Part shown: piece after piece, positions 8,593-48,125 of the stretch
Layout of the letters: every line of letters begins with the position of its first letter
How positions within the stretch are numbered: the stretch's first letter is position 1
Origin: a virus
Strand: one strand, 5' to 3'
Virus record (IMG/VR): IMGVR_UViG_3300031933_000031
Coordinates: 1 to 48,256 of that record
DNA length: 48,256 nt
The notes under the pieces: model-generated
Databases searched by the model: none
Told to the model about the DNA's origin: nothing
Seen by the model: only the letters and a program-made list of their open reading frames with translations
Program-made: the position numbers and the translations under genes

Positions 8593-8621
8593 ACTTTAAT
8601 CGCTGGTGACACATACGTCAA
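8593..8621 (-). promoter_or_regulatory. Early-type promoter for the antisense tRNA-like array, with TGAC-N6-GTCA operator
   Basis: Minus strand: TTGACG (8621-8616), 17 bases, TAAAGT (8598-8593). The TGAC-N6-GTCA palindrome (8607-8620) overlaps the -35 box exactly as at the other early promoters of the window. It would start a transcript running through 8590 to 7920. Confidence 0.6.
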
Positions 8622-8648
8622 GTACTTTTTATTTTTTATTTACTCAGG

Positions 8649-8663
8649 CAGTGTTATACTGTG
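8649..8663 (+). promoter_or_regulatory. Putative late promoter -10 motif
   Basis: GTTATACTGTG with TATACT at 8655-8660, the recurrent structural-gene motif. It is only 9 bases before the spike ATG, so a transcript from it would be nearly leaderless. Confidence 0.5.
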
Positions 8664-8669
8664 GATATT

Positions 8670-9488
8670 ATGACGATTAAAGCAACTCTAACCGAAGCGT
8701 TTAAACGCGCTAAGCTCGAAGCGATGAAAGAAGTCGCAACATCTATACCCGGTCACGTAATAGCGTTTGACCCTGCGACTCAACACGCCCAGATACAAAT
8801 CGGTGTGGTGCGTATAGATGTTAACGGTACTGAGTTCAGCCCACCGCCACTTATCGAAGTACCTGTAGCGTTTGTCGGTGGTGGTGAGTATTTTCAAGAA
8901 TACGAAATAAACCCTAACGACGAAGGGCAAGTGTTATTCTCGCAACGCTGTATCGACGGATGGAAAACGACGGGCGGTATCGCTCAAAACCCTATTTTAC
9001 GTTTCCACGATTACAGCGATGCGGTCTTCATTCCAGGTATACGTTCACAACCTAATGTGATCATCGACCACGCTAACAACGGTATTCGTTTACGTAGTAA
9101 AGACGGTACGCGTTACGTATGGTTAAAGAACGACGGAACAATCGAAACGACTAACGGCACGGTTACACGTACTGATTCACCCGACGGGACATTCACCGAA
9201 ACGAACGGTAATTTCACACGTGTGGTTAACGCTGACGGCTCGATGAGTGAAACGAACGGCGCGTACAATAAAACGGTAAGTACGGCTGGTGTTGTGAATA
9301 TTAACGGTTTCATAATCCTATCAGATGGTTCAGCATCAAGCCCCGTACAAGTTCAAGCGCTTACCGTCATCGGTACATCGTCGCTTATCGTGTCAGGTAA
9401 AGAAGTTAAAGAGCACGTACACGATAAAGGTACTTATATCGACGCGGGTGACTCGCCGCTCAAGTCTGGCAATAGTGGAGCATTATAA
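8670..9488 (+). CDS. Baseplate spike / puncturing protein (Gp138 N-terminal domain)
   Basis: A 272-residue protein. I chose the ATG at 8670 because the residues from there (TLTEAFKRAKLEAMKEVATSIPGHVIAFD) match the N-terminal helix and first OB-fold strand of the Gp138/gpV spike family; a GTG three codons earlier lies in the promoter. Residues 25-120 form the OB fold. A needle region follows with repeats of the type 'TNG.xTRT.D.xGT.TETNG'. Near the C-terminus HVH in 'KEHVHDKGTY' is like the HxH iron site at spike tips. The protein trimerises under the hub. Confidence 0.75.
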   Translation: MTIKATLTEAFKRAKLEAMKEVATSIPGHVIAFDPATQHAQIQIGVVRIDVNGTEFSPPPLIEVPVAFVGGGEYFQEYEINPNDEGQVLFSQRCIDGWKTTGGIAQNPILRFHDYSDAVFIPGIRSQPNVIIDHANNGIRLRSKDGTRYVWLKNDGTIETTNGTVTRTDSPDGTFTETNGNFTRVVNADGSMSETNGAYNKTVSTAGVVNINGFIILSDGSASSPVQVQALTVIGTSSLIVSGKEVKEHVHDKGTYIDAGDSPLKSGNSGAL

Positions 9489-9835
9489 TGACTGTGAGAT
9501 TACTAGACGCTGACGGAGACATATCGACAAGCGGTCAACAATTCGCAACAGGGCGGGAAGAAATCGCACAAACTGTACAGACGCGTTTACGTTTATTCCT
9601 TGGTGAGTATTTCCGCGACGTAACAGACGGTACACCGTGGTGGGAATCGATACTTGGTAAAGAAGGTACGTTGTCGAGTAAAGAAGCGATTATAAAATCA
9701 CGTATCGTACGTACCGAAGGTATTGAACAACTTATCGAGTTTAGTACTGATTTCGACATAAACACCCGTGCATATAGTGTATCGGCTGGTATACTTACAC
9801 CATATGGTACAACTTATTTTACAGTGAGCGTTTAA
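9488..9835 (+). CDS. Baseplate wedge protein (gp25/gpW-like)
   Basis: A 115-residue protein. The segment 'GREEIAQTVQTRLRLFLGEYFRDVTDGTPWWESILG' (about residues 20-55) is the characteristic gp25-like lysozyme-fold wedge segment. 'AIIKSRIVRTEGIEQLIEFS' matches the second half. It connects sheath ends to the baseplate wedge. It overlaps the stop of the spike gene by one base and is followed at once by the J-like gene, the expected order. Confidence 0.8.
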   Translation: MTVRLLDADGDISTSGQQFATGREEIAQTVQTRLRLFLGEYFRDVTDGTPWWESILGKEGTLSSKEAIIKSRIVRTEGIEQLIEFSTDFDINTRAYSVSAGILTPYGTTYFTVSV

Positions 9836-9836
9836 C

Positions 9837-14050: not shown

Positions 14051-14373
14051 GCGCACATTCGTTAGATGCCACAAATGCAAACATTATCGTGTCAAGCACG
14101 ACAGGCGCGGCAGTGGCGGCAACTAGTGCTATGAATGTGATTAACGAATACGCTGTGATCATAGGTTTATTGATAAGTGTTGTTTCGTTAGTGGCTGGTG
14201 TGTGGTTCAAGATAGCTTCAAACCGTAAAGAAGATGTTAGGCGTGAAGAAGAATTAGCGTATCGTGCTGAAGAAGCGCGACAATCGAGAATGCAAATCGA
14301 CGCGCTTGCTGCGATGATGGAAAGTATGATCACCCGCGACGGGATTGAGCGTCGTGAGGAACCCCGCATATAA
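14047..14373 (+). CDS. Small holin-like membrane protein (HP1-type)
   Basis: A 108-residue protein. An Ala/Ser/Thr-rich N-terminus leads to one strong membrane segment (EYAVIIGLLISVVSLVAGVWF, about residues 34-54). A basic stop (KIASNRKEDVRR) and a long charged helix follow. This is the pattern of HP1-family holins, which have 'NEWGVIIG...YKRKE'-like sequences. It could instead be a spanin-like protein. The start overlaps the upstream stop (ATGA). Its 3' end overlaps the convergent gene by 44 bases. Confidence 0.5.
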   Translation: MSAHSLDATNANIIVSSTTGAAVAATSAMNVINEYAVIIGLLISVVSLVAGVWFKIASNRKEDVRREEELAYRAEEARQSRMQIDALAAMMESMITRDGIERREEPRI

Positions 14374-14734
14374 TATCTTCGAAATAACCAAGCCCAACAC
14401 CTTGTAACATACTCGGCGTTCGTCCGTTATCCATTTCGTGTAATAGTATTTCGTGCGCTTTTTTGAGTGCTTCAAGCAACTCGGCGTTACGTGCTTCGAG
14501 TGTGGTCAACTCAACACTTGAGGGCATTCCCACTGGTTCCTCATCACCGAACAGCACTTTCATTTGTTTACCATAAAAACAATAGTCTAAAGTGGGAGTA
14601 ATGTTTTTACAACCTACCCGCTTTAGTTCGTCGTGGTCAACATACCAACAACCACCTTTATATGTGGCTTTAACAATTGACCCGACCGGTAAATCTAAAG
14701 CTACATACGGGTTTTTAATAATTTGTATATTCAT
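14330..14734 (-). CDS. Hypothetical protein, small beta domain plus coiled coil
   Basis: A 134-residue protein. I chose the ATG at 14734 (GAGGG about 10 bases upstream) over a start at 14764. The first 65 residues (VALDLPVGSIVKATYKGGCWYVDHDELKRVG) resemble those of the 73-residue protein at 30658 (FPVEVEGVIEHECG...SAELKRIG). Residues 75-110 form a helix rich in Glu/Leu/Ala. It is the last gene of the leftward region and runs 44 bases into the convergent holin-like gene. Function unknown. Confidence 0.6.
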   Translation of the reverse strand: MNIQIIKNPYVALDLPVGSIVKATYKGGCWYVDHDELKRVGCKNITPTLDYCFYGKQMKVLFGDEEPVGMPSSVELTTLEARNAELLEALKKAHEILLHEMDNGRTPSMLQGVGLGYFEDIICGVPHDAQSRRG

Positions 14735-14784: not shown

Positions 14785-14813
14785 AGTATTGTCTATAGTG
14801 ACGGGGTTGTCAA
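14785..14813 (-). promoter_or_regulatory. Early-type promoter with TGAC-N6-GTCA operator
   Basis: Minus strand TTGACA (14813-14808), 17 bases, AATACT (14790-14785). The palindrome TGAC-aacccc-GTCA overlaps the -35 box. It would drive the 134-residue gene ending at 14330. Confidence 0.65.
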
Positions 14814-19393: not shown

Positions 19394-20581
19394 TTATTTA
19401 TCCTGTTTAATATTTCTAAAAATGTTACGCAACTTTGCGCCGCTCATTTCAACAAGCTTTAAGCCTGTTGATGGTGTTTCACTATAGAGATTGATGACGG
19501 TCTCGTCAATACCTAATTTAATTAATTTTGTTGGTGTGTCTAAATCCACAGGTTTACGAGGGTCAACACCCATTAGTTCACCCATCATTATGATTTCGTC
19601 GACAGGTGTGTCTTTCTTCCAGCGCTTACGACCTTTACCTTGTTCGATACTGTAACCTGGTAATTGCTCGCCGTTACGCAACTGTGCGATTGCTTGTTCT
19701 TCATACGAACTTAACAACGCTTTAACCTGTTTAGACGCACGTTGCAGTATGCGAAGCTGTATCGACAACTCGTGACCCGACAACGAAGAACCTGTGACAT
19801 TACCGACTTGGTCGACTAACCCCATCGTATTATCACGAAACGCGTCGCAAGCGTAACGAGCGGGACAATAGAAGCACGACTCGGATGTCACGCACTTAGC
19901 ATCATCACTGTACGATTCGTTGGCCGCTTCGATTAACGTGTTAAAATATCCACGTAGGTCGGACGCTGTAACGTCCCAACGACTGATACACCCGTCACGA
20001 TGGAATACACGTGGTTGTGCCACACGTAACGATACTTTGATGTGTTGCTCTGCGTGCCCGTCGATGCCGAGGTAACGTAGAATACCCATCGCGTACGTTA
20101 TTAACTGCCAGTTCTCAAACGCTTCGACACGTTTATGACCGTACTTACCTTCCCATAAGGTTAACTCACCTGTGGATTTAGAGAAGCACCAAGTATCACA
20201 GTAACCGTACATACCTTCGATAATATCGTCTAGCTCGATACGTTGCTCAACTTGTAAAGCTTTTAACGAGCCGTTCGAGTTACAAAACTTTAAGACGTCG
20301 TTAGCGTATTCGAGCGCCGCGTCGTATATCTCGTCGGTGATGAGTACATTGTCACGACTTAACGTATCGACAAGTTCGTGACGACCGACTAACTCACCTT
20401 CGACACCATCTTTAAACGATTCTAAAATACGTTGCGCTACTTCGTGAAACGCACGACCTTCTAACATTGATTCGCTGTTACGGTCTGTTTCGATTCGTGG
20501 GAATTGTTGGGACAGCTTAACGCTGCCCGTACAATGTACCCATGTCGCCGCGTTGTGCGGCGCTAAGGGTGATTTGCTCAT
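19394..20581 (-). CDS. PD-(D/E)XK nuclease, DUF2800 (RecB/Cas4-like)
   Basis: A 395-residue protein. 'SMLEGRAFHEVAQRIL' supplies the early Glu/His. 'MYGYCDTWCFSKSTGELTLWEGKYGHKRV' gives the D-x(n)-E-x-K catalytic core (about residues 124-152), followed by 'NWQLITYAMGIL'. A cysteine cluster 'CVTSESCFYCPARYACDAF' (about 230-248) resembles the Fe-S binding site of Cas4/AddB-type nucleases. DUF2800 proteins are phage exonucleases thought to act in recombination or DNA processing. It overlaps the DnaQ-like gene by 4 bases. Confidence 0.8.
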   Translation of the reverse strand: MSKSPLAPHNAATWVHCTGSVKLSQQFPRIETDRNSESMLEGRAFHEVAQRILESFKDGVEGELVGRHELVDTLSRDNVLITDEIYDAALEYANDVLKFCNSNGSLKALQVEQRIELDDIIEGMYGYCDTWCFSKSTGELTLWEGKYGHKRVEAFENWQLITYAMGILRYLGIDGHAEQHIKVSLRVAQPRVFHRDGCISRWDVTASDLRGYFNTLIEAANESYSDDAKCVTSESCFYCPARYACDAFRDNTMGLVDQVGNVTGSSLSGHELSIQLRILQRASKQVKALLSSYEEQAIAQLRNGEQLPGYSIEQGKGRKRWKKDTPVDEIIMMGELMGVDPRKPVDLDTPTKLIKLGIDETVINLYSETPSTGLKLVEMSGAKLRNIFRNIKQDK

Positions 20582-21105: not shown

Positions 21106-21959
21106 GATAACTTCGCCTCTAGTGCTGTTACGAATTTAGGGATTAGGTCGGCACGTGTGGCAATCAGTGGGATTGCTGTAAGCGCTGGATCAACTTCTAA
21201 TAATGTCGCTTTAATCATGTCGTTATCAGCCCCACGCTTCTTCGCGTCACTTGTCATGTAAAGCATTAATTCTTGAAACGTCGTTACTTTTGGTTTGTCC
21301 GCTTCGACTACAGGAGGCGTTAAGCTCGTTGGAGGCGTTACGGGTGCTACTGGCGTACCGGTCGTAACAGGTGGTTCGACAATGTCCATAGGGTTATCGT
21401 TAGCATTACCGATAACATCTATCGCTTGTTGCTCCGTGAACTCTGCTTCAGGCGGTGTTACCGGAATATCTTGCACAGCTTTAAGCTCTGCTTTAACTGA
21501 GTCGATGTAAGCCGTCCACTCTTCTTCGGTCTTATCGGCTGGACGCTTACGTAAACGCCACGTGTTGTCGGCTAAACGTGTAGCACCTTTACTGTGTATA
21601 CGTTTATCGTGTGGGATACCGTCCTCGTCGAGTGTCGAGTTCACAACTTCTTCGAACGCTTCGTCGTGTTTAGTGTTTTCGTGATGGATAGACGCTTCAA
21701 GCTCTTCGTCATGGTCAGGTCGAATAAGAGTACCGTCGTCAACCATATCGTTAATAGTCGATAAAGTTTGTTTAGCTTGTGCGAATACTTCGTCTAGCTC
21801 ATTATCGTCATCAGTAGAGTAACCTTCCTCGGCTTTACTAACTAAACCACTGAACACGTCCTGCTCGTGACGTTCAGTGGCGATACGTTGTAAGGCGTCG
21901 GCCATCGCTGAAAGTGCGATGTGGTCGTTTGCTGGTACTTCGATTTTAATTTGTGTCAT
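21102..21959 (-). CDS. Hypothetical replication-operon protein sharing a motif with the DNA polymerase
   Basis: A 285-residue protein; the ATG at 21959 has GAGGA 8 bases upstream and is preferred to an in-frame start at 22028 inside the promoter. It is acidic in the first 110 residues. 'DEDGIPHDKRIHSKGATRLADNTWRLRKR' (about 115-145) matches the polymerase C-terminal 'DANGVPWDERIHTK'. A Pro/Thr/Val linker (about 180-220) and a small helical C-terminal domain follow. First gene of the leftward replication operon. Function is unknown; the layout (domain-linker-domain) suggests a scaffold or loader. Confidence 0.6.
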   Translation of the reverse strand: MTQIKIEVPANDHIALSAMADALQRIATERHEQDVFSGLVSKAEEGYSTDDDNELDEVFAQAKQTLSTINDMVDDGTLIRPDHDEELEASIHHENTKHDEAFEEVVNSTLDEDGIPHDKRIHSKGATRLADNTWRLRKRPADKTEEEWTAYIDSVKAELKAVQDIPVTPPEAEFTEQQAIDVIGNANDNPMDIVEPPVTTGTPVAPVTPPTSLTPPVVEADKPKVTTFQELMLYMTSDAKKRGADNDMIKATLLEVDPALTAIPLIATRADLIPKFVTALEAKLS

Positions 21960-21984
21960 TTGGTTAATTCCTCGTAGTTGGTTA

Positions 21985-22028
21985 TTGACAACACGGTCAC
22001 TATAAACGTATAGTAACGGTTCAGTCAA
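21985..22028. promoter_or_regulatory. Divergent early promoters with two TGAC-N6-GTCA-type operators
   Basis: Plus strand: TTGACA (21985-21990), 18 bases, TATAGT (22009-22014), driving the rightward arm. Minus strand: TTGACT (22028-22023), 18 bases, TATAGT (22004-21999), driving the leftward replication operon. The -35 element of each promoter is directly next to the -10 element of the other. A full palindrome TGAC-aacacg-GTCA lies at 21986-21999; a partial copy in the other orientation occupies 22009-22028. One regulator could thus control both replication arms. Confidence 0.75.
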
Positions 22029-22046
22029 TACTTAAAGAGAAATAAA

Positions 22047-22256
22047 ATGAAAGTTTATACGTTAACTCTAGTACGTTACGATTACGACACGTTCGAATCG
22101 CTTGAGGATGTCGGGTCGGATTTACAAAAATTAATCGACGAGCGAGAAAAGGAATGTTTACCAGTGTTAAGTTATGAAGATACTTTCGACCATCGTAACA
22201 TACCTGGTGATCAAGAAGGTGATAACCATTATTACTATCAAGAGTGGGATGTGTAA
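22047..22256 (+). CDS. Hypothetical 69-residue acidic protein
   Basis: First gene of the rightward arm, with AAAGAGA just before the ATG. The protein begins with a strand (MKVYTLTLVRYDYD) and ends in a run of Tyr (NHYYYQEWDV). Strongly acidic. No family recognised. Confidence 0.6.
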   Translation: MKVYTLTLVRYDYDTFESLEDVGSDLQKLIDEREKECLPVLSYEDTFDHRNIPGDQEGDNHYYYQEWDV

Positions 22257-22257
22257 A

Positions 22258-35589: not shown

Positions 35590-35833
35590 CTCCCCACTGC
35601 CAATCGTGACCATCGAGGTGGTTGGAGTCTTTAAACAGTGGGTTGATTTCACAATCCTCATCATCCACTATCGAAAATATAGGGTTGTTATCTTCATGAT
35701 ATACCCTTATCACACGGTATAGTTTACCAGCCGTTATGTACGAACAACCAGTGTAATCAGTTGTCACGAATCGTCGGGTGATTACACGTTGGTTACGAAT
35801 GCGACGAGCGCCGCGTTTTGTTTTAATCTTCAT
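35582..35833 (-). CDS. Hypothetical 83-residue basic protein
   Basis: ATG at 35833 with AGGAG about 9 bases upstream, overlapping the end of the upstream gene. N-terminus is Arg/Lys-rich (MKIKTKRGARRIRNQRVITRRF), then a strand-rich part (GCSYITAGKLYRVIRVYHEDNNPIFSIVDDEDCEI), similar in pattern to small KTSC/DUF-like SH3 folds. Last gene of the reverse cassette; overlaps the terminase end by 8 bases. Confidence 0.55.
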   Translation of the reverse strand: MKIKTKRGARRIRNQRVITRRFVTTDYTGCSYITAGKLYRVIRVYHEDNNPIFSIVDDEDCEINPLFKDSNHLDGHDWQWGVI

Positions 35834-36017
35834 TTTTAAGACTCCTACGTCGTTTAACTTCAAGCTCTACGCGTAATTTATGTTGGAAGCGTTGACCGCG
35901 CGCCACACGCTCCATGTAACTCATGGTATCACGCGAAAACGCCTCGAATGGTTGTTGGAAGCGTAACGACTTTTCGCGCTTTGCGTACGCTTCGCGGTTA
36001 TCGGTTATTTGCATCAT
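35823..36017 (-). CDS. Hypothetical 64-residue charged protein
   Basis: Starts at ATG 36017 (or 36014) after AGGA. Helical and very basic (REAYAKREKSLRFQQPFEAF, then MERVARGQRFQHKLRVEL). Overlaps its downstream neighbour by 11 bases. No family recognised. Confidence 0.5.
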   Translation of the reverse strand: MMQITDNREAYAKREKSLRFQQPFEAFSRDTMSYMERVARGQRFQHKLRVELEVKRRRSLKNED

Positions 36018-36315
36018 TCTTAATCCTGTGTTTCATACCAGCTCGTTTCCTGGTAATTTGTTTAGTCGTTACACCCATTTCAAGTGCTAGACGCTTGTTG
36101 TCTCTACTCACGATGATTCGACCGCACTGCGTTGGTGTGAATTTACGCACTCGTTTCGTCTTGTTGATACCTTTCAAGTGTAACTGTAGTTCAATTCCTT
36201 TCGTTGTACGACCAAGTGTCGTTGCAATCTGATCGGGTGTAACGCCTTGTTTCGTTGCGTCACACATGTAACGCAACTCTTTGTTCGTGTAAGGTTGATT
36301 GGTTCGGTTAGTCAT
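35998..36315 (-). CDS. Putative helix-turn-helix DNA-binding protein
   Basis: A 105-residue basic protein. I chose ATG 36315, which overlaps the upstream stop by 8 bases. 'YTNKELRYMCDATKQGVTPDQIATTLGRTTKGIELQLHLKGI' reads as a Myb/SANT-like HTH of the 'G.....IA..LGRT...I...L' type. A second half-similar unit follows (FTPTQCGRIIVSRDNKRLALEMGVTTKQITRKRAGM). The protein at 47839-48063 has the same type of HTH. It could regulate late genes. Exact family not assigned. Confidence 0.6.
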   Translation of the reverse strand: MTNRTNQPYTNKELRYMCDATKQGVTPDQIATTLGRTTKGIELQLHLKGINKTKRVRKFTPTQCGRIIVSRDNKRLALEMGVTTKQITRKRAGMKHRIKNDANNR

Positions 36316-36616
36316 CACAATACACCTGAATATTTGACTCACCATAAGAACCTACGTGTATCTCAATGTAATCCACGTCCTCAACCAAACCCTTCGATAC
36401 TAGCCAAGGTAGGAAAGCTGTACCAGTGACCCGACGCTCATCGCGGTTTTTGAAAAGGTTTGGTGTCTCCTTATCGCTAGTATGTTCAGATTCCCATTCA
36501 GATTTTAACTCGTCTAAATCGAATTCAACTATCGACACCACTAAAGCCTCGACGCAATAGTCTGAATATTCACCTTCCGCGAAAGTTATGTGCTGACCTT
36601 TCTTAATCGTTCTCAT
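36308..36616 (-). CDS. Hypothetical 102-residue acidic protein
   Basis: ATG at 36616 preceded by GGTGAG; the adjacent GTG at 36619 is less well spaced. First gene of the cassette, directly behind an early promoter. Pattern 'HITFAEGEYSDYCVEALVVSIVEFDLDELKSEW' then 'GTAFLPWLVSKGLVEDVDYIEIHVGSYG'. No family recognised. Confidence 0.55.
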   Translation of the reverse strand: MRTIKKGQHITFAEGEYSDYCVEALVVSIVEFDLDELKSEWESEHTSDKETPNLFKNRDERRVTGTAFLPWLVSKGLVEDVDYIEIHVGSYGESNIQVYCDD

Positions 36617-36637
36617 CACTCTATCTCACCTATTTAA

Positions 36638-36681
36638 TTGACTGCATCGTCACTATAGTCGATAGTAGCGCAACGTGTCAA
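36638..36681 (-). promoter_or_regulatory. Early promoter with TGAC-N6-GTCA operator
   Basis: Minus strand TTGACA (36681-36676), 18 bases, TATAGT (36657-36652). The palindrome TGAC-tgcatc-GTCA (36639-36652) begins at the -10 box and covers the start site. Its leader (CAGTCAATTAAATAGGTGAG) matches those at 38585 and 40775. Confidence 0.7.
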
Positions 36682-36684
36682 GTG

Positions 36685-36697
36685 TTGATATACTCTT
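36685..36697 (+). promoter_or_regulatory. Putative late promoter -10 motif before portal gene
   Basis: TATACT at 36689-36694, seven bases from the -35 box of the opposing early promoter, so the two promoters would compete for polymerase. Confidence 0.45.
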
Positions 36698-36728
36698 AAT
36701 AATTCCGATTCATTGAGTACCGTATAAC

Positions 36729-38108
36729 ATGACCGACATCGTACCAATTCCACCACCGACGCTTGACGGGCTTAGTAACGTTATGACAGGTCTAGGTGGT
36801 CCAAATTCTAAACGCTCGCACAACAAGTGGGATTACCCGTTATTCGGTGATTTTTCCACATTAGATGCGATGTACTCAAGCAACTGGATAGCACGTAAAA
36901 TTGTGGACATACCCGCCGAGGACATGACGCGCGAATGGCGTCGTATCAAGTGTGATGGCGCTGAAGAAATAACAGCGTACGAAGCGCGCGTTGGGTTACG
37001 TCCGAAAGTGCAAGAGGCTGTTAGTTGGGGTCGTTTGTATGGTGGTGGCGGCATCTTGATGTTAACCGACCAGGACTTAACGAAACCGTTACGCGTTGAG
37101 CTTATCAAGCGTGACGGGCTTAAAGGTCTTAAGGTGTTTGACCGCTACGACATGCAAGCCGGTACGATTAACACGTGGGACATTCTCGCTGAGAACTATT
37201 TGAAACCTGAATTCTACACGGTGCGTGGCGGTGCGATGCAAATCCACCACAGTCACTTCGCACGTTTCACCGGTGAACGCCTACCGCTACGTATGCAGCA
37301 ACAAACGCAAGGTTGGGGAGATTCAACGCTTCGTAAGTGTATCGAAGATATTACGGATATGGTTGCAGCGAAGGACGGTATTGCTGAGCTAATGCAAGAA
37401 GCGAACATCGATATAATCACACGTAACGGCCTAGCGGACGAGTTAAGCACCGACCAGGACGATATGATCACCAAGCGTTACCAGATGTTCAGTCTTATGA
37501 AATCTAGTATTCAGATGGCATTGCTTGACGGTGGTGACGGTGCGGGTGGTGGTACGGCCGAGAAATTCGAGCGAGCTACGTTAAACTTGTCAGGTGTTGC
37601 GCCGATTATCGAGCAGTTCATTACGTGGATTTCAGGTGCTGCGGATATACCGGTTACACGTATGTTCGGTACGAGCGCTAAAGGTATGAACGCCACGGGT
37701 GAAGGGGACGACAAGAATTACAACAATTCGATTCGCGCTCAACAGACTAGTTATCTACACGAACCGATGCGAATACTTGACGAGGTGCTAGTACGTAGCG
37801 CGTTGGGTCACTTCCCCGACGAGTACGATTATGTGTGGAATCCGCTAGCGCTACCTAACGACCTTGAGCACGCTCAGGCTGAACAGTTACGTTCACAGAA
37901 ACACATGTCATATCTCGAAGCGGGTATCGTACAGAAGTCGCAGGTCATGCGTGAACTCCAAGCTAACGAGGAATACCAGTACGACGACGACGAGCTTGAA
38001 GAATTAGAAGAGCTTGAAGAAGGTAACATGTTCGAAGAGATGCCAAGCGCAGAAGACGATCCGATGCGTTACGCTGAAGAGCAAGTTAAGAAGAATGAAG
38101 CCCCGTAA
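36729..38108 (+). CDS. Portal protein (DUF1073 family)
   Basis: A 459-residue protein. 'TLDAMYSSNWIARKIVDIPAEDMTREWRRIK' and 'VSWGRLYGGGGILMLTD' (about residues 42-115) are the DUF1073 signatures, followed by 'QIHHSHFARFTGERLP', 'GWGDSTLRKCIEDI', and 'TRMFGTSAKGMNATGEGDDKNYNNSI'. The dodecameric ring forms the DNA gate at the capsid vertex. The C-terminus is acidic with a 'LEELEELEEG' repeat. No ATPase or other extra domain. A hairpin covers its stop codon. Confidence 0.85.
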   Translation: MTDIVPIPPPTLDGLSNVMTGLGGPNSKRSHNKWDYPLFGDFSTLDAMYSSNWIARKIVDIPAEDMTREWRRIKCDGAEEITAYEARVGLRPKVQEAVSWGRLYGGGGILMLTDQDLTKPLRVELIKRDGLKGLKVFDRYDMQAGTINTWDILAENYLKPEFYTVRGGAMQIHHSHFARFTGERLPLRMQQQTQGWGDSTLRKCIEDITDMVAAKDGIAELMQEANIDIITRNGLADELSTDQDDMITKRYQMFSLMKSSIQMALLDGGDGAGGGTAEKFERATLNLSGVAPIIEQFITWISGAADIPVTRMFGTSAKGMNATGEGDDKNYNNSIRAQQTSYLHEPMRILDEVLVRSALGHFPDEYDYVWNPLALPNDLEHAQAEQLRSQKHMSYLEAGIVQKSQVMRELQANEEYQYDDDELEELEELEEGNMFEEMPSAEDDPMRYAEEQVKKNEAP

Positions 38109-38115
38109 CGGGGCT
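38099..38115. terminator. GC-rich hairpin shared by convergent genes
   Basis: AGCCCCGT and ACGGGGCT around a single A; the portal stop (38106-38108) lies in its loop and the convergent 50-residue gene ends at 38114. T-runs are poor on both sides, so termination may be weak. Confidence 0.5.
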
Positions 38116-38266
38116 ATTCAATAAGACCTCTAAGTCTCGCTAATATCATTATATCCTCATTGGTCAGATAGATATAGGGTGTGTCAGGGTCGATATGGAG
38201 CTGTATATCACATTCATTCTCCACACTTATTATGTCGGAGTCTTCCAAGTTTATGTCGTCACTCAT
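38114..38266 (-). CDS. Hypothetical 50-residue acidic protein
   Basis: ATG at 38266 overlaps the stop of the upstream 36-residue frame (TGATG), with GGGGG upstream. Sequence 'MSDDINLEDSDIISVENECDIQLHIDPDTPYIYLTNED' is acidic and ends in a short helix (IMILARLRGLIE). Last gene of the cassette. No family recognised. Confidence 0.5.
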   Translation of the reverse strand: MSDDINLEDSDIISVENECDIQLHIDPDTPYIYLTNEDIMILARLRGLIE

Positions 38267-38376
38267 CACACTAACCCCCAAAGTTTTAAACGTTTCTCGT
38301 AGCACTCTACGAGTGTTTCGTCTTGTTGACCGAGCCAGTCGGCAAACGCTATTATTTTCGCTGCGATACGTTTCAT
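38266..38376 (-). CDS. 36-residue peptide
   Basis: Frame from ATG at 38376 (overlapping the upstream stop, ATGA) to TGA overlapping the next ATG (TGATG). The sequence is helical with Trp/Lys (IAAKIIAFADWLGQQDETL, then ECYEKRLKLWGLV). Both junctions show coupling, which supports expression. No family recognised. Confidence 0.5.
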   Translation of the reverse strand: MKRIAAKIIAFADWLGQQDETLVECYEKRLKLWGLV

Positions 38377-38564
38377 TCGGCCCCCGAGAATAACGACCAC
38401 TTTTCAACGTTCTCGTCGAACATGTCGTTAGGTTGTTCTGGATAACAATACTTACCGTTTCTATATTCGCAAATTTGATAACCTAAATCGTTCCACTCGG
38501 GACAATAGGTTATCAATACTCTATTCTTCGGCGGAACACTACTTCTCGCATGCCATATGTTCAT
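38373..38564 (-). CDS. Hypothetical 63-residue protein, DUF551-like pattern
   Basis: I chose ATG 38564, matching the leader layout of the gene at 40754 (GTGAGTAAAGATATG). 'WHARSSVPPKNRVLITYCPEWNDLGYQICEYRNGKY' and the closing 'VEKWSLFSGAE' follow the DUF551 layout (W...P....VLI...W..L). The similarity is weak. First gene of the cassette. Confidence 0.5.
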   Translation of the reverse strand: MNIWHARSSVPPKNRVLITYCPEWNDLGYQICEYRNGKYCYPEQPNDMFDENVEKWSLFSGAE

Positions 38565-38584
38565 ATCTTTACTCACTCATTTAA

Positions 38585-38627
38585 TTGACTGTAACGTCAC
38601 TATATATCCATTAGCACAACGTGTCAA
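38585..38627 (-). promoter_or_regulatory. Early promoter with TGAC-N6-GTCA operator
   Basis: Minus strand TTGACA (38627-38622), 17 bases, TATAGT (38604-38599), a near-ideal sigma70 promoter. TGAC-tgtaac-GTCA (38586-38599) covers the start site. Confidence 0.75.
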
Positions 38628-38628
38628 C

Positions 38629-38644
38629 ACTTGTTATACTGTGA
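38629..38644 (+). promoter_or_regulatory. Putative late promoter -10 motif before MuF gene
   Basis: TTGTTATACTGTGAATAT with TATACT at 38635-38640, seven bases from the -35 box of the opposing early promoter. 29 bases before the MuF ATG. Confidence 0.5.
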
Positions 38645-38669
38645 ATATACCAACGAACCGAGCAGCACC

Positions 38670-39566
38670 ATGACGAGCGCCGAACTATTACAACAGCAAC
38701 TAGCGACCAGCAAGCGCCGCAAGCCGAAAGGTGTTAAGCAAGACTTACAAGCGGGCGCAACGTATCACACCGAGCTACGCCGTATCGTGCGTGAAGTACG
38801 TAAAGACATCGACAAGTATGTGATGAGCGCCGTTAAGTCGACAAGCTTCGAATACACTGCTGACGGCATATCGACTCGTATCGTTATGGACTCGTACGTC
38901 GACGTTATTGCAGGAGCGTTAAAACTAGTTCGGGAGCGTTGGTCAAGTCCACAATTTAACGCGCTTGCGACTCGTATCGCGCGTAAGTTCGTTACGACGG
39001 CTAACAATACAAACGCTGAACGTACGAAACGTGATTTAGGTATCGATGTGTTTGTCGACAACTCTGAGTTGCGCGACTACGTTCAAGCGTCTATTTACGA
39101 TAATGTACGTTTAATCGAATCGATACCAGCTCAATACTTAACACAAGTCGATAGTATCGTGATGACAAATGTACGTGCGGGCGGTAGACCAAGCGCAATC
39201 GCTAAGCTACTACAAGAACAATTCGGCGTTACGGAACGTCGTGCTAAACTTATCGCACGTGACCAGACAGCAAAGGTGAACGGTGACCTGAACGCTAAGC
39301 GTCAAACCGCTGCGGGTTTTCCGTACTTTGAGTGGACTGATAGTGGTGATGAGCGTGTACGTGATAGACACGCCGATATTAACGACAAGGTTACAGCGTA
39401 TGGTAAGGGTATTTATCGTTGGGATAATCCGCCGCTAAGCGATCGTGGTACACCAATAATACCCGGGCAAGATTTCAGTTGCCGGTGTATAGGTAGGCCT
39501 GTGAGTCAGGAAGAAGTGGACGCGAATATCAAAGCGGGTCGCGTCCGTAAGGGTGTTACAAGGTAG
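38670..39566 (+). CDS. MuF-like head morphogenesis protein
   Basis: A 298-residue protein; ATG at 38670 preferred over an earlier in-frame start inside the promoter region. The N-terminal 170 residues are helical. 'RRAKLIARDQTAKVNGDLNAKRQTAAGFPYFEWTDSGDERVRDRHADINDKV' and 'PPLSDRGTPIIPGQDFSCRCIGRPV' (about 205-285) are the Mu gpF domain: R-D-Q, W-x-(T/S), D-x-R-x-x-H, C-R-C. This minor head protein is needed for capsid assembly and may be ejected. Convergent overlap of 11 bases with the next gene. Confidence 0.85.
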   Translation: MTSAELLQQQLATSKRRKPKGVKQDLQAGATYHTELRRIVREVRKDIDKYVMSAVKSTSFEYTADGISTRIVMDSYVDVIAGALKLVRERWSSPQFNALATRIARKFVTTANNTNAERTKRDLGIDVFVDNSELRDYVQASIYDNVRLIESIPAQYLTQVDSIVMTNVRAGGRPSAIAKLLQEQFGVTERRAKLIARDQTAKVNGDLNAKRQTAAGFPYFEWTDSGDERVRDRHADINDKVTAYGKGIYRWDNPPLSDRGTPIIPGQDFSCRCIGRPVSQEEVDANIKAGRVRKGVTR

Positions 39567-39762
39567 GTGAGTTGCGAGACATCCAACCGAGGTGATGACC
39601 GTAACGTATTAATTTACGCTCGTTATCATCCATTGGTGAACACGCTAAATCCCATGATTCCCATTCGTTAAGCCATTCACGGTCTTTACCCACAGGGTTT
39701 AGCTCCACCATTCGAGTTTTAAACTCACTGTAAGGTAATAATACGTCTGATGGTCTAATCAC
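39556..39762 (-). CDS. Hypothetical 68-residue protein
   Basis: GTG start with an excellent GGAGG ribosome site 6 bases upstream. Trp-rich (EWLNEWESWDLACSPMDDNERKLIRYGHHLGW). Last gene of the four-gene reverse cassette. No family recognised. Confidence 0.55.
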   Translation of the reverse strand: MIRPSDVLLPYSEFKTRMVELNPVGKDREWLNEWESWDLACSPMDDNERKLIRYGHHLGWMSRNSPTL

Positions 39763-39797
39763 GACTCACCTCCACACTGCTTCGAGTAGTTTTCGTA

Positions 39798-39902
39798 CTA
39801 TTTGAATAAACGTTCAGCTTCGTGTAATTCTTCCATTTCTAAAGCTGCTTGATAAGCGCGGTACATCTCGTCGCGCTTCTTTACGTACCATTCGTTATTC
39901 AT
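39798..39902 (-). CDS. 34-residue peptide
   Basis: ATG at 39902 overlaps the stop of the upstream gene by 8 bases; TAG at 39800-39798. Sequence 'MNNEWYVKKRDEMYRAYQAA' continues as an acidic helix. GAGA precedes the start. Expression is plausible from the operon layout only. Confidence 0.45.
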   Translation of the reverse strand: MNNEWYVKKRDEMYRAYQAALEMEELHEAERLFK

Positions 39903-40575
39903 GATTCAGTCTCTCTTTTTGGTCTAATAGTATTAACGCTTTTTGAGCGCTTTCAATAATGTTTAAATAATCTGTGCGTTTATCTTTATGGCCACGCTCA
40001 CCGGGTTTTAACGCTTTCTTGATGAGATGTTCAATATGCGGGTCAACCTGTGGATACGCGTCAAGCACACGGTAAATATCAATTTTAACAGCTGTACCGC
40101 ACAAACCGATGATAACCGCTTCGTACTTCTTACCGTCGTCAAGGTCGTCCTGTTGCTGTTCAACACTAGGTGTTGGGCGGTGAGAGTGATGAATCACATC
40201 CTCAACCGTGAGCATCAAGGATTTTGAGAAATCGAATACATCGCTAGTTTTACCTTTTGCGTATATGTACATATACTGTTCGTGGTTGTACCATATCGGG
40301 TGTTTACATGGTGGAACAGTACCATAACTAGTCGCCCAGCTTGGTGCGTTGTTCCAATCTATAACCGTACAACTCGACCTCGCTTCGAACTCTTCGCGCG
40401 TCCAGACCTTACCGTCGTAGTAGTCCGGTGCGAAATGTTCGGATAGGTCTACGATATGATAAGGTGATGTTATCGGATTGCTGAAACCAACTCTACCGTC
40501 TCTCCATAACATCACATGTTTAGCGTCACTAGGCCATTCCGTAACGTGCTGTTTAATAAATTCTAGACTGTTCAT
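39895..40575 (-). CDS. Hypothetical 226-residue protein with DUF3310-like C-terminal motif
   Basis: The N-terminal half is unassigned, with many aromatic residues (YHIVDLSEHFAPDYYDGKVWTREEFEARSS). The C-terminal 'VKIDIYRVLDAYPQVDPHIEHLIKKALKPGERGHKDKRTDYLNIIESAQKALILL' follows a common phage pattern 'VDVYDVLxAx.V..PAIQHAxKKLLxxGxRGxKDxxxDLxEAIxSIxRAI', seen in small phage proteins near nucleotide or recombination genes. Role unknown. Coupled at both ends. Confidence 0.6.
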   Translation of the reverse strand: MNSLEFIKQHVTEWPSDAKHVMLWRDGRVGFSNPITSPYHIVDLSEHFAPDYYDGKVWTREEFEARSSCTVIDWNNAPSWATSYGTVPPCKHPIWYNHEQYMYIYAKGKTSDVFDFSKSLMLTVEDVIHHSHRPTPSVEQQQDDLDDGKKYEAVIIGLCGTAVKIDIYRVLDAYPQVDPHIEHLIKKALKPGERGHKDKRTDYLNIIESAQKALILLDQKERLNHE

Positions 40576-40754
40576 ACTCGACCCTCTTTTTTAAGTAGCT
40601 CTGCGATTGCTACAAGCTCAGAGAATGTCACGCTGCAATATTCGTCCACCCATATAGAACCGTTGTCCCAAACTGTAATTGCGCTGTTAATCTTCTGAAC
40701 CTTTTCTTGAAGTTCTTCGTCTTCGTACACTTCACTTTGTTTTAAATCACTCAT
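40572..40754 (-). CDS. Hypothetical 60-residue acidic protein
   Basis: ATG at 40754 with the leader layout GTGAGTAAAGATATG shared with 38564. Sequence 'SDLKQSEVYEDEELQEKVQKINSAITVWDNGSIWVDEYCSVTFSELVAIAELL' is helix-strand mixed. First gene of the cassette; stop overlaps the next start. No family recognised. Confidence 0.55.
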   Translation of the reverse strand: MSDLKQSEVYEDEELQEKVQKINSAITVWDNGSIWVDEYCSVTFSELVAIAELLKKEGRV

Positions 40755-40774
40755 ATCTTTACTCACCTGTTTAA

Positions 40775-40817
40775 TTGACTGAATCGTCACTATACGACAC
40801 GAAATAAATATTTGCAA
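40775..40817 (-). promoter_or_regulatory. Early promoter with TGAC-N6-GTCA operator
   Basis: Minus strand TTGCAA (40817-40812), 17 bases, TATAGT (40794-40789). TGAC-tgaatc-GTCA (40776-40789) covers the start site. TTGCAA is its own complement and can also serve as the -35 box of the late promoter on the other strand. Confidence 0.7.
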
Positions 40818-40845
40818 GTATTATTGTTAACGCGTTATACTGTAG
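40812..40845 (+). promoter_or_regulatory. Putative late promoter before DUF2213 gene
   Basis: TTGCAA (40812-40817), 18 bases, TATACT (40836-40841), followed by GT. The -35 box is shared with the divergent early promoter, so the two cannot both be occupied. Confidence 0.6.
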
Positions 40846-40870
40846 CTATTAAAGCAGAGGACACGCAGTC

Positions 40871-41971
40871 TTGAAACATTTACATATCACAGACACGTTC
40901 GATTTCGCACCGTCATCACGTACTTATACGGATAACGGTTTTTTGCGTGTTAAAGGCCGTGCAGCCCGTACGGGTGTTTATCAATACCTTGCGAGCGAGT
41001 TGGAATTAACCGACCGCGCACCCAATGACACTGTGAACGTGTACCGACCAGCCGAAGAAGTGTTTAACACCGATTCGCTATCTTCATATTCAAACGTAGA
41101 CGTAACGAATGACCACCCTAAAGCTATGGTAGACTCTAAGTCGTACAAAGCTACGAGTGTGGGTCACGTTATCAGCGCGACACAGGACGGCGATTTCGTC
41201 AATGTGGATATGATTATTAAAGAAGACGACGCGATTCGTGATATTGAGAGCGGAAAGTCTCAACTGTCACCAGGTTATACCGCAGTGTACAAATCCGAAC
41301 AGGGTATAGCACCTTGCGGTACTGCTTACGATTTTAAACAAACCGGAATTGATGTAAACCACGTAGCAATCGTTAAACGCGGTCGTGGCGGGGATCAAGT
41401 TCGTATCAATGACAACCACGGAGTAAAAACCATGAACAAGGTAACACTTGACGCTGGTCGCTCAATCGAGATTGAAGACGCTGCGGTTGCCGCACTCGTT
41501 ACAGATTCGATTGCACGATTAGAAAAACAAGTCACCGATGCTCAAGCCGCTATCGACGCAGCGAGCGCAGAGCGTGACACTATCGCCGAGAAACTTAAAG
41601 CCGCTGAACTAGCTACTAGCGACGAAGCAATCGCTAAGCGCGTTGCGGACGTTGCGAGCGTACAGTCTCAAGCGCGTAAAGTTGCTGGTGATAAATTCAC
41701 ATGTGAAAGTGTGGATACATTAACGATTCAACGTGAAGCACTTACGCTAGTACGCGATTCAATCGACTGGTCTGAAAAAGCCGAAGCGTATGTACAAGCT
41801 GCTTTCGATATGGCCGTTGTGGACGCTGAAGCGACCCCAGCACACAAACCAGAAGACCAACACGCTAAGCTTGCGTTAGACGCAGCGAACGTACAAAAAC
41901 AAGCAGAAGTTAAAGTATCTGCATACGACGCACATCGTGCGAAATTACAAAACGCTTGGATGGAGAAATAA
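40871..41971 (+). CDS. Capsid protease/scaffold-like protein (DUF2213)
   Basis: A 366-residue protein with an unusual TTG start preceded by AGAGGA. 'GFLRVKGRAARTGVYQYLASEL', 'VTNDHPKAMVDSKSYKATSVGHV', 'IESGKSQLSPGYTAVY' and 'GIDVNHVAIVKRGRGGDQVRI' (about residues 19-180) are the DUF2213 signature. After residue 195 the protein becomes a long coiled coil (about 205-260) and an Ala/Glu-rich tail, the scaffold portion. The first domain is thought to be a prohead protease. Gene precedes the cement and capsid genes. Confidence 0.8.
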   Translation: MKHLHITDTFDFAPSSRTYTDNGFLRVKGRAARTGVYQYLASELELTDRAPNDTVNVYRPAEEVFNTDSLSSYSNVDVTNDHPKAMVDSKSYKATSVGHVISATQDGDFVNVDMIIKEDDAIRDIESGKSQLSPGYTAVYKSEQGIAPCGTAYDFKQTGIDVNHVAIVKRGRGGDQVRINDNHGVKTMNKVTLDAGRSIEIEDAAVAALVTDSIARLEKQVTDAQAAIDAASAERDTIAEKLKAAELATSDEAIAKRVADVASVQSQARKVAGDKFTCESVDTLTIQREALTLVRDSIDWSEKAEAYVQAAFDMAVVDAEATPAHKPEDQHAKLALDAANVQKQAEVKVSAYDAHRAKLQNAWMEK

Positions 41972-43493: not shown

Positions 43494-43520
43494 AAAAGCC
43501 GCTTCGAAGCGGCTTTTTTA
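43494..43520. terminator. Bidirectional intrinsic terminator after capsid gene
   Basis: AAAAGCCGC (43494-43502), TTCGAA, and GCGGCTTTTTT. A-run on one side and T-run on the other make it work for both the capsid gene and the convergent HNH gene. Confidence 0.85.
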
Positions 43521-44339
43521 TATGTTATTGGATTTAGTCAAATTATCTATAGCCCAAAGAGGTTGTAAATTCCCCAAAGCATTTATCACTTTAGGATCCG
43601 TAACACCTTCCTCTATACATTTACTGACTGGGTAAATGTGATCGATGTGCCACTCACCATAATTATCCCATGTCATCCCGTCGAGAAATAAAGACTCTAA
43701 ATGTTTTCTCAAATCTAAAGGTGTGTAACCAACTGTTGATATGGTGTCTTTTCTCTTCTCACTGGAGGATACTCGTATAACCCTGCCCAGCATATTACGC
43801 ATGTAACAAGATATTTTAAAGTCCACATCTTTGTTACGTCTATTCACGTAGTAGCTATTCAATTTATTTTTATTTTCCTCTCGATACTTTTTATTTTTCA
43901 ACTTCCTAGATTCTCTATGTTTAGCATAGTCATTACGTTTTTGCTCCAAGTGTTTGTCAGTATCCTTGTAGTACAGTTTCATTTTTTGAGAGTTTATAAT
44001 ACTACGGTTTGAGTCCACGTACTTTTTACGAGTTAACCTGTGCTTTTCAGTTTTAGTATATTCTCTGAGTTTTCGTTTTATAACTTCAGAATTGGTTACC
44101 CTGTACTCTGAAACACGATGTAATATTTCACTTTTGTTATTCTCATAATATGCTTTATCGGTTGACCTCTTTCTATCTTTGTTATTGACATTCCATTTTG
44201 CTACTTTATTTTTAACGCATTCTGAACATTTACCGTCGTTAACATATCTATAAGACACGTGGCCATGTTTACATGATTTACCGGTGTAATAGTGTGTTAA
44301 CTCTAGTTTTTTAGCTTCTTGTCTTGAAATGATTTTCAT
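43518..44339 (-). CDS. HNH homing endonuclease with N-terminal zinc module
   Basis: A 273-residue protein. Residues 3-45 hold a zinc module (IISRQEAKKLELTHYYTGKSCKHGH...YRYVNDGKCSEC). The middle is a long basic, Lys/Asn/Tyr-rich helix region. The HNH core is near the C-terminus: 'GEWHIDHIYPVSKC' (H-I-D-H) and 'NALGNLQPLWAIDNLTKSN' (N...N...K). It makes double-strand breaks and would spread by homing. Codons are far more AT-rich than in neighbours (AAA, AAT, TAT, AGA). It lies antisense between capsid and accessory head genes, a free-standing insertion. Confidence 0.85.
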   Translation of the reverse strand: MKIISRQEAKKLELTHYYTGKSCKHGHVSYRYVNDGKCSECVKNKVAKWNVNNKDRKRSTDKAYYENNKSEILHRVSEYRVTNSEVIKRKLREYTKTEKHRLTRKKYVDSNRSIINSQKMKLYYKDTDKHLEQKRNDYAKHRESRKLKNKKYREENKNKLNSYYVNRRNKDVDFKISCYMRNMLGRVIRVSSSEKRKDTISTVGYTPLDLRKHLESLFLDGMTWDNYGEWHIDHIYPVSKCIEEGVTDPKVINALGNLQPLWAIDNLTKSNNI

Positions 44340-44483
44340 GTTTGTAACCCCTAAGTCATAGGTAGTCTTGAAAGGTTGCGACAGGCATTGACTAAATGCT
44401 TTTCAACTGGCCGGTCTAGTCGCTTTAATTAATATAACAAACTTGCTAGTTAATTGTCAAACGTGCTATTATTTATACGATGT
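44340..44483. other. Non-coding region upstream of the HNH gene
   Basis: No gene is supported. A small hairpin GCATT-GACTA-AATGC lies near 44386-44400, and GCGAC (about 44378-44382) may pair with GTCGC (about 44428-44432) across it, giving a possible pseudoknot on the plus strand. The rest is AT-rich. It may be residual sequence from the homing insertion. Confidence 0.4.
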
Positions 44484-46567: not shown

Positions 46568-46571
46568 TAGT

Positions 46572-47150
46572 ATGATACCTGATTGGCGTAACATCAAAAC
46601 GACCGACGCTATGACTCTACAGGTTATTAACGGTCGTCGCGCCTTGTGTACTCAAACGTACGACGAAGTTAATAAAAAATCTGGTACTCAGTGGGAGGCG
46701 TCACGACTTGTGACCCTCCTATCGGGTGAGACAGCTACGTCTATACTACTCATCGGTTCAAAACCTGTGGATTTAAAGAAACGTGAGTTTGCGTATCGTA
46801 AAGCGGGTGTCGTAGCGCGTATTTATAAAAACCCAACATATACGGGTGGTGTTGAAGACGCACTATATAACATGAATACGTCAGGTGTTTTGCCAGAAAC
46901 TAAACTCTTGACGGGTTTTACGTTAACTGATAACGGTGTCGAGTGTGGCGCACCTATCTACGCGATAGGACCTGACACGAACCAAACAACCGGTTCGAGC
47001 ACAACGGCTTACGCAACGAATAGAGTTTTAGAACCTAACACAGCTTATCTATTAACCTTCGAATCACTCGACGCAGCGTCACAAGATGTCGCAGCACGTA
47101 TCGAGTTTTACGAAGGTATATTAGACTTACCGAACGGTGACTTACTATGA
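46572..47150 (+). CDS. Putative virion structural protein
   Basis: A 192-residue protein. It has 'YRKAGVVARIYKNPTYTGGVEDALYNMN', 'GAPIYAIGP', and 'NRVLEPNTAYLLTFESLDAASQDVAARIEFYEG', a pattern of beta-sandwich virion proteins in many phages where the last strands read 'L.PNT.YL..... ...V...L.WYE'. Placed between the hydrolase and DUF4054, it overlaps the next gene by 4 bases. Probably a capsid or head-fibre component. Confidence 0.6.
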   Translation: MIPDWRNIKTTDAMTLQVINGRRALCTQTYDEVNKKSGTQWEASRLVTLLSGETATSILLIGSKPVDLKKREFAYRKAGVVARIYKNPTYTGGVEDALYNMNTSGVLPETKLLTGFTLTDNGVECGAPIYAIGPDTNQTTGSSTTAYATNRVLEPNTAYLLTFESLDAASQDVAARIEFYEGILDLPNGDLL

Positions 47151-47578
47151 GTGTGGAAATTACACAAGAAATAATCGACGCGTTTCGTGTCAATAAACCA
47201 GCGTTCAGTGACGAAACGAAGTGGCCGACGGAAGTCGTTACCGAGGCGTTTTGTGAAGCATTCCCTGAATGCGGTGGGCGTGGTTGGGGCGCGTTTGACG
47301 TGACGGACTGTCAAAACTTTAAACGTCGTGGTGTGTTCTTATTCGCTGCGCACTGGTTGAGTATTGAATACACTACTGGTCAAGGTGCTACAGACCCGAC
47401 CGCCGTAAGCTCGACAGCGCGTTTAAACGTTGCGGCTAAGTCAATACGCGACGAGTCTGTTACGTTCCGTGTGGGTGCTATACAGTCCACACAGGATGAT
47501 TGGTTATCGTTAAGTAACTATGGTGTCCAATACCTACGCTTAAGGCGTCGCGCTGGTATGGGTGCTCGCGCTGTCTAG
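47147..47578 (+). CDS. Head completion/adaptor protein (DUF4054)
   Basis: A 143-residue protein. 'IIDAFRVNKPAFSDETKWPTEVVTEAFCEAFPECGGRGWGAF', 'NFKRRGVFLFAAHWLSIEYTTGQGA', 'RLNVAAKSIRDESVTFRVGAI' and 'LSLSNYGVQYLRLRRRAGMGARAV' are the DUF4054 signature. These proteins form the first ring below the portal. The 3' end overlaps the convergent cassette by 39 bases. In related phages the gp10-like connector follows next, which matches the left end of this window. Confidence 0.8.
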   Translation: MSVEITQEIIDAFRVNKPAFSDETKWPTEVVTEAFCEAFPECGGRGWGAFDVTDCQNFKRRGVFLFAAHWLSIEYTTGQGATDPTAVSSTARLNVAAKSIRDESVTFRVGAIQSTQDDWLSLSNYGVQYLRLRRRAGMGARAV

Positions 47579-47842
47579 CGATTCAAGCTCTCGACGTGCT
47601 TCGAGTTCGTCGAGACGCTTTTTAATTGTGACACGTTTCGCGTCGTTGGTATGCTTACGACTTCTCGCCACTGAACAATCAACACACTTATCATTCGACA
47701 CGTAACGTAACTTGTGACCATATTTACACACGTAAAAATAAACGGGTATGTCGAGTTTTTGACACTCTTCTTTCGTCATTTTATTGACAGTCACTTTACG
47801 GTGTATCACTGTTGAATCACCACCTAGATTGTATCTACTCAT
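47540..47842 (-). CDS. Small zinc-module protein related to HNH-associated module
   Basis: A 100-residue protein. 'MTKEECQKLDIPVYFYVCKYGHKLRYVSNDKCVDCSVARSRK' (about residues 22-63) is the same module as in the HNH endonuclease at 43518 and the multi-zinc protein at 32214 (C-x2-G-H...RYV-x3-K-C-x2-C). The rest is a basic helix (DAKRVTIKKRLDELEARREL). No HNH core. Starts in the stop of the HTH gene (ATGA). Likely nucleic-acid-binding. Confidence 0.6.
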   Translation of the reverse strand: MSRYNLGGDSTVIHRKVTVNKMTKEECQKLDIPVYFYVCKYGHKLRYVSNDKCVDCSVARSRKHTNDAKRVTIKKRLDELEARRELESLDSASTHTSATP

Positions 47843-48063
47843 AAAACTCGTCCTGATTCTCTTAATATGTATAGTCGTGCGCTTAATTGTATAGGTGTTT
47901 TACCTATCGTCGCGGCTATTTCCTTACGGTTATGACCGCGTTTCACACCAAACATTAACGCTTCGTCTTGCCATTCTTGCCAATACGGTAAACTATTCAA
48001 CTCACTTTCAGCTTTTAATAGTTCGTTGTATCGCAATCGTGAAATCTGTACGGTGTCGTTCAT
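47839..48063 (-). CDS. Putative HTH DNA-binding protein
   Basis: A 74-residue protein. ATG at 48063 with GGAG about 12 bases upstream; a TTG at 48081 is possible. 'WQDEALMFGVKRGHNRKEIAATIGKTPIQLSARLYILRES' is an HTH of the same type as in the protein at 35998-36315 (G....IA.TIG.T...L). Coupled to a zinc-module gene downstream. First gene of the cassette. Confidence 0.6.
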   Translation of the reverse strand: MNDTVQISRLRYNELLKAESELNSLPYWQEWQDEALMFGVKRGHNRKEIAATIGKTPIQLSARLYILRESGRVL

Positions 48064-48096
48064 TGCGTTGTATCTCCACAAATTTACTGTACGGGA

Positions 48097-48125
48097 AGTG
48101 TAACGTTTAGTGACGATCCCGTCAA
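48097..48125 (-). promoter_or_regulatory. Early-type promoter with TGAC-N6-GTCA operator
   Basis: Minus strand TTGACG (48125-48120), 17 bases, TACACT (48102-48097). TGAC-gggatc-GTCA spans 48111-48124. It drives the HTH/zinc-module cassette. Confidence 0.65.

Follow-up and report, generated by a model that had tools for sequence, protein, structure and literature searches.

Repressors of the TetR family, such as TetR, QacR, RutR and HapR/LuxR, carry a TetR_N helix-turn-helix (HTH), bind palindromic operators with half-sites about one helical turn apart, place these operators on core promoter elements and regulate their own genes. Among phage-encoded regulators, C1 of P1 and gp71 of mycobacteriophage L5 are lysogeny repressors with many operators across the genome, and p4 of phi29 turns off early sigma70 promoters and also activates a late promoter. 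Here we analyse a viral stretch of 48,256 bp (IMG/VR record IMGVR_UViG_3300031933_000031, positions 1 to 48,256; hereafter the window), in which the palindrome TGAC-N6-GTCA recurs on sigma70-like promoters and a tetR gene encodes a 113-residue TetR-like protein, which we call mini-TetR.

The system in the window resembles the TetR family in its HTH, its predicted palindromic operators with half-sites one turn apart, the position of these sites on core promoter elements and its predicted autoregulation. It differs in having a protein of at most 113 residues, no ligand-binding domain and many operators in a small phage genome. As in P1 and L5, a phage repressor would be matched by many spread operators (12 in the window), whereas C1 and gp71 differ in fold and act at sites that are no palindromes of the TGAC-N6-GTCA kind; also unlike these systems, the window and six relatives yielded no tyrosine integrase or serine recombinase (partition genes were not searched for). 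The likeness to phi29 p4 lies in the proposed shut-off of early sigma70 promoters by a phage protein, again with a different fold.

Genes for tetR-like proteins were reported in phiPLPE, CP-T1 and 138 by Comeau et al. 2012 (PMC3391216) as 'TetR-like cellular transcriptional regulators', perhaps osmotic-stress regulators co-opted from bacteria, and these proteins are orthologous to that of the window. The text of that report mentions no promoter, operator or palindrome and describes no targets. The freely licensed literature gave no description of phage TetR operators or of a phage TetR regulon, and earlier work may exist elsewhere. What is new here is a probable phage repressor with many predicted operators that is built on a ligand-free TetR HTH and conserved over several phage genera, and the proposed early-gene switch is widespread and apparently undescribed.

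A palindrome in fixed registers on sigma70 promoters

The window holds 12 exact copies of TGAC-N6-GTCA where 1.04 are expected, a count reached in 0 of 100 dinucleotide shuffles, and the reversed pattern, used as a control, has no match. When every 4-mer dyad with a spacing of 0-16 is counted without bias, TGAC-6-GTCA ranks first. Two close relatives, G001 and G003, carry 14 and 13 sites, respectively, and no reversed copy. Across ten phages, N6 is the only enriched spacing (124 sites against 6-24 at each other spacing), which sets the half-site centres 10 bp, or one helical turn, apart. In the same phages 104 of the 124 sites lie outside gene interiors where 35.7 would be expected, and thus the palindrome is not equally common away from promoters. 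Between the window and its relatives the half-sites have diverged by 2.4%, the flanks by 12.5% and the spacer by 21% (P=1e-7).

All nine palindromes listed in the initial annotation are real and eight of the nine positions are exact; the remaining one, given as 14795-14808, lies at 14799-14812, and the sites at 19495, 24974 and 26729 had been overlooked. Both variant sites are also genuine: 22014-22027 is TAACGGTTCAGTCA, with one mismatch, and 33038-33049 is TGAC-N4-GTCA. The number of operators therefore rises from about ten to at least 12, plus two to three degenerate ones.

Sigma70 promoters overlapping each site were scored against a null of shuffled flanks. The window sites average 12.5 bits against 7.2 for the null, and none of the 12 falls below the 95th percentile of the window null; for the 124 sites of the ten phages the values are 10.7 and 6.4 bits. 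The overlap with a -35 or -10 box, claimed earlier for every site, extends to 12 of 12, and two fixed registers account for them all. Seven operators have their TTGAC as the -35 box, and in the other five the last T of a TATAGT, TATATT or TAAAGT -10 box is the operator's first T (Table 1). The tetR promoter carries one operator in each register, so that the single operator first assigned to this gene (26702) is joined by a second (26729). Additionally, an independent consensus scan of 21900-41000 returned ten promoters that match at 10/12 positions or more; an exact operator is present in seven of them and the N4 variant in one.

It is hardly credible that the dyad is promoter sequence only, with a TTGAC -35 box, chance palindromes from back-to-back promoters and no protein involved. 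Seven of the 12 window sites do use TTGAC as their -35 box, but the other five sit at -10, where TGAC is no promoter element, and N6 alone is enriched among the spacings. The right half-site, GTCA, is conserved although it has no role in a one-way promoter. The near absence of sites from relatives without a tetR gene, described below, refutes this explanation in the main.

Assigning the sites to the phage protein

The tetR product matches Pfam TetR_N (PF00440) over residues 17-63 (28.5 bits against a cut-off of 24), with the recognition helix of the HTH at about residues 46-53 (G-I-S-T-G-L-V-S-K-V-F). An AlphaFold2 model with a confidence score (pLDDT) of 87.7 comprises a four-helix DNA-binding part and three short helices. 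The 50 PDB matches listed are all TetR-type regulators; they superpose well over the first 60-70 residues only (for EilR, 64 residues at 1.1 A). Solved TetR relatives mostly have 186-273 residues; with 113 residues and only three short helices after the HTH, the C-terminal ligand-binding and dimerisation domain is absent. The protein is thus a TetR_N-domain mini-regulator and not a canonical TetR. With no space left for a ligand-binding domain, its activity is probably governed by its amount.

Comparison across phages supports the initial proposal that a TetR-like protein serves these operators. Seven relatives that have a related head gene and lack tetR contain one site among them (1.007.O, F12 g1, 207E34-1, 1.248.O, 1.263.B, 95E33-2 and 4_D05, with 0, 1, 0, 0, 0, 0 and 0 sites), whereas the tetR-bearing phages LAPP1, IME346, RCIP0047 and CP-T1 contain 16, 16, 17 and 9. 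We grouped 83 phage genomes or loci by the residue at the Gly47 position of the recognition helix. Those with a Gly helix hold 284 sites against 28.0 expected (49 genomes or loci), while neither Pro helices (6 sites, 4.5 expected, 15 genomes or loci) nor Gln helices (1 site, 0.6 expected, 9 genomes or loci) show enrichment; Ala helices have 14 against 2.4 (6) and Ser helices 4 against 1.9 (4). A further clade of 16 loci (EGLISKYF/EGLPSKYF-like helices), which was retrieved afterwards with a query based on other-type proteins, has 43 sites where about 3.7 were expected. Of 45 Gly loci, 31 have an operator close to tetR, in most cases about 45 bp upstream; the 20 Pro or Gln loci have none there. 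A nine-protein alignment was too diverse for scanning.

Several observations weigh against the assignment. The Gly rule had already emerged from the first 20 phages when the larger set was assembled, and because many of the loci are related to one another their counts lack independence. Loci with an Ala helix differ, one clade having 9 sites against 0.6 expected and the others few, and thus Gly alone does not make up the whole recognition code. phiPLPE has a Gly-helix TetR and yet a single site in its genome. CP-T1 has no operator directly upstream of tetR; the nearest upstream promoter site heads the tetR operon. Taken together, presence and absence, recognition-helix covariation, and the conservation both of half-sites and of an operator about 45 bp ahead of tetR nevertheless support the view that the phage's own TetR-like protein would act at the TGAC-N6-GTCA sites. 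Other TetR subfamilies have candidate dyads of their own, TAACTT-N9-AAGTTA in one subfamily and GTAGCG-N6-CGCTAC in PY6, and a de novo dyad search also yielded candidates for the Pro and Gln subfamilies.

A host regulator of similar specificity might instead use these sites. RutR of Escherichia coli, a TetR protein with equal half-site spacing, recognizes TTGACCA-N2-TGGTCAA, and the window sites 24974 and 26729 begin with TGACCA. Such a role is highly improbable given that the sites track the phage gene, being present in Vibrio phages with a Gly-helix tetR and next to absent from those without tetR, and that the hosts of phages with the protein-site pair span Vibrio, Klebsiella, Pantoea, Edwardsiella and Acinetobacter. 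The same pair occurs in dozens of other phages, and the predicted control circuit, at first considered unusual, is thus widespread.

Methyltransferase genes adjoin tetR in many relatives, and the sites could in principle be methylation marks of the neighbouring enzyme, or the protein an activator of these promoters. Both ideas are very unlikely: bipartite N6 methylation marks should occur beyond promoters as well, near-consensus promoters need no activator, and the sites lie on core elements, not upstream of them.

A proposed early shut-off

We propose that an autoregulated mini-TetR probably represses the early promoters by occlusion, since the operators lie on core elements of near-consensus promoters. 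A mini-TetR dimer would bind TGAC-N6-GTCA, and an occupied operator on the -35 or -10 box of a strong host-sigma70 promoter would block RNA polymerase. At entry, with repressor absent, the operator-bearing promoters would fire; TetR would then accumulate and shut all of them, its own included, in negative autoregulation. Late structural genes would continue from extended -10 promoters (TGTTATACTGTG) that carry no operators. The simplest reading of the sequence is an early burst that limits itself and ends in shut-off, because tetR belongs to its own predicted regulon and its product has no ligand domain. We observe the sites, their promoter registers, their conservation and their covariation with tetR and its recognition helix, and we infer direct binding, repression and early-off timing.

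Alternatively, the main role of mini-TetR and its operators might be superinfection immunity or a carrier state, lysogeny-like or pseudolysogenic, in which all early promoters are kept silent. Every early promoter is covered, including that of tetR, as with P1 C1 and L5 gp71. CP-T1, which has nine sites, is reported to be temperate with none of the known lysogeny genes (PMC3391216), and its sequence record reads 'induced lysogen'. We consider this role unlikely, as the window and six relatives have no tyrosine integrase or serine recombinase (with no search made for partition genes), two scans of 84,980 species genomes found no bacterial relative of the Klebsiella-type or CP-T1 TetR, and phage 138, which has the same regulator, is lytic (PMC3391216). 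It is similarly doubtful that mini-TetR acts alone as a master repressor and enables phages that lack integrase, CI and partition genes to enter a lysogeny-like or immune state, with an operator code diverged through recognition-helix changes (the TAACTT-N9-AAGTTA and PY6 dyads representing sister specificities). If true, this would account for the temperate behaviour that is reported for CP-T1. In CP-T1 the mini-TetR is a candidate to fill the place of the missing repressor, and it makes the question of how this phage is temperate without known lysogeny genes directly testable.

The proposed early shut-off by mini-TetR also bears on existing annotations. Small myophages of the same group, among them Jedunavirus phages of Klebsiella (KpV52, IME346), carry a 'TetR regulator' annotated without known purpose and labelled anti-defence in one record. 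For this regulator our analysis supplies a predicted operator, a list of targets and a logic that can be tested, in phages of at least five host genera. Additionally, these compact repressors, which are paired with their operators and differ in specificity, form a natural series for studying the evolution of the TetR recognition code, and mini-TetRs may be useful as ligand-free parts for circuits.

Predicted targets, late promoters and related phages

The predicted targets are the divergent replication arms, the tetR-primase operon, small early genes (24974, 29472), the tRNA-like array (8607) and, among the late genes, the antisense cassettes downstream of 36639, 38586, 40776, 48111 and the variant at 33038. 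Promoter direction and position are in line with the earlier view that both replication arms, the tRNA-like array and most antisense cassettes are members of the regulon. They also agree with its claim that no structural gene has an operator in a like position: sites 36639, 38586 and 40776 adjoin the genes for portal, head morphogenesis and the following structural protein, and their promoters point away, into antisense cassettes. Control of the portal and head genes by 36639 and 38586 was considered and rejected, as the consensus promoters there face the opposite way and structural genes are served by promoters of their own. These form a second class with an extended -10, TGTTATACTGT(G) or TGTTATACTGTGAA-like, without a -35 box or operators, which also lies upstream of structural genes in G001 and G003.

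Table 1. Positions in the window of tetR, exact and variant operators, and promoters; the strand column refers to genes and promoters, and gene starts were called by a simple script.
Feature	Position	Strand	Register	Context
tetR (113-residue mini-TetR)	26764-27105	+		TetR_N, HTH
Operator	8607-8620		-35	minus promoter TTGACG-17-TAAAGT (-10 at 8593-8598), into tRNA-like array 7920-8400
Operator	14799-14812		-35	minus promoter TTGACA-17-AATACT, toward minus open reading frame 14330-14734
Operator-like site	19495-19508		-35	inside exonuclease gene, on minus promoter TTGACG-17-TATAGT
Operator	21986-21999		-35	common to the divergent promoters below
Promoter TTGACA-18-TATAGT	21985-22014	+		to helicase arm
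Promoter TTGACT-18-TATAGT	21999-22028	-		to exonuclease/SSB/DNA polymerase arm (exonuclease, annealing protein, DNA polymerase)
Degenerate operator	22014-22027			on -35 of leftward replication promoter
Operator	24974-24987		-10	plus promoter TTGACA-17-TAAAGT (24946-24974), upstream of endonuclease/methyltransferase-like genes
Operator	26702-26715		-35	tetR-primase promoter TTGACA-17-TATATT (26701-26729, +); half-sites identical in G001 and G003
Operator, second of tetR promoter	26729-26742		-10	begins at final base of -10
Operator	29472-29485		-35	plus promoter TTGACA-17-TAAAGT (29471-29499)
Variant TGAC-N4-GTCA	33038-33049			minus promoter TTGACT-18-TATAAT (33050-33021), upstream of minus gene 32214-33065
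Operator	36639-36652		-10	minus promoter TTGACA-18-TATAGT (36681-36652), to antisense cassette 35582-36619
Operator	38586-38599		-10	minus promoter TTGACA-17-TATAGT (38627-38599), to antisense cassette 38114-38576
Operator	40776-40789		-10	minus promoter TTGCAA-17-TATAGT (40817-40789), to antisense cassette 39895-40766
Operator	48111-48124		-35	minus promoter TTGACG-17-TACACT, to antisense genes 47839-48081
Extended -10 promoters	608, 2727, 8655, 38635, 40836			8-36 bp upstream of structural gene starts

At site 24974 the spacer is wholly replaced in G001 and the half-sites are intact. Site 29472 overlaps the end of the primase gene, and its promoter feeds a small-gene operon from 29550. Site 19495 encodes a G-I-D-x-x-V-I stretch that recurs in related exonucleases and may partly reflect coding constraint; our first view, that coding constraint alone accounts for it, is weakened by the promoter also found there. 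At 44345-44358 a one-mismatch site, TAACCCCTAAGTCA, lies directly upstream of antisense gene 43518-44339, the sole cassette without an exact operator or N4 variant, and is possibly a decayed operator.

The tRNA-like array on the minus strand contains T-loop motifs and repeated terminator-like hairpins. ARAGORN called no tRNA in this array, and Rfam gave only a sub-threshold tRNA-Sec match (7925-8016, E 0.47). The virion module (portal, head morphogenesis, sheath and Gp138-type protein) is shared with the phiPLPE-like dwarf myovirus group, with domain matches for portal, Mu F, sheath and xxxxx_N, and the head protein is 51.6% identical to that of CP-T1. A megablast search with the first 25 kb of the window returned no close named phage.

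Among the relatives, the TetR proteins of Scuro (21424-21924) and SppYZU01 (38065-38565) have 167 residues, in which two HTH-like segments follow each other in tandem; the first is degenerate, and the DNA-binding domain may have been duplicated. In the 43.6-kb genome of SppYZU01, TGAC (53), GTCA (26) and TGTC (22) are rare compared with GACT (136), and its two operators are therefore far above expectation. CP-T1 has GC-rich dyads besides the operator, namely 12 copies of GCGC-N11-GCGC and four of CGCCCC-N5-GGGGCG; GC-rich repeats of this phage have been discussed as a speculative attachment site (Comeau et al., PMC3391216). The TetR-less Vibrio phage 1.007.O (MG592393.1) carries 15 GTGA-N6-TCAC sites (for example at 4218, 6636, 20685 and 26023) against 1.1 expected, and nine of the 15 are TGTGA-N6-TCACA, as in the CRP consensus. 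Several of the 15 directly follow the -10 box (TATACT) of late promoters that precede the genes for portal, head and neck proteins, and it is possible that the late genes of 1.007.O are under a CRP-like or other regulator.

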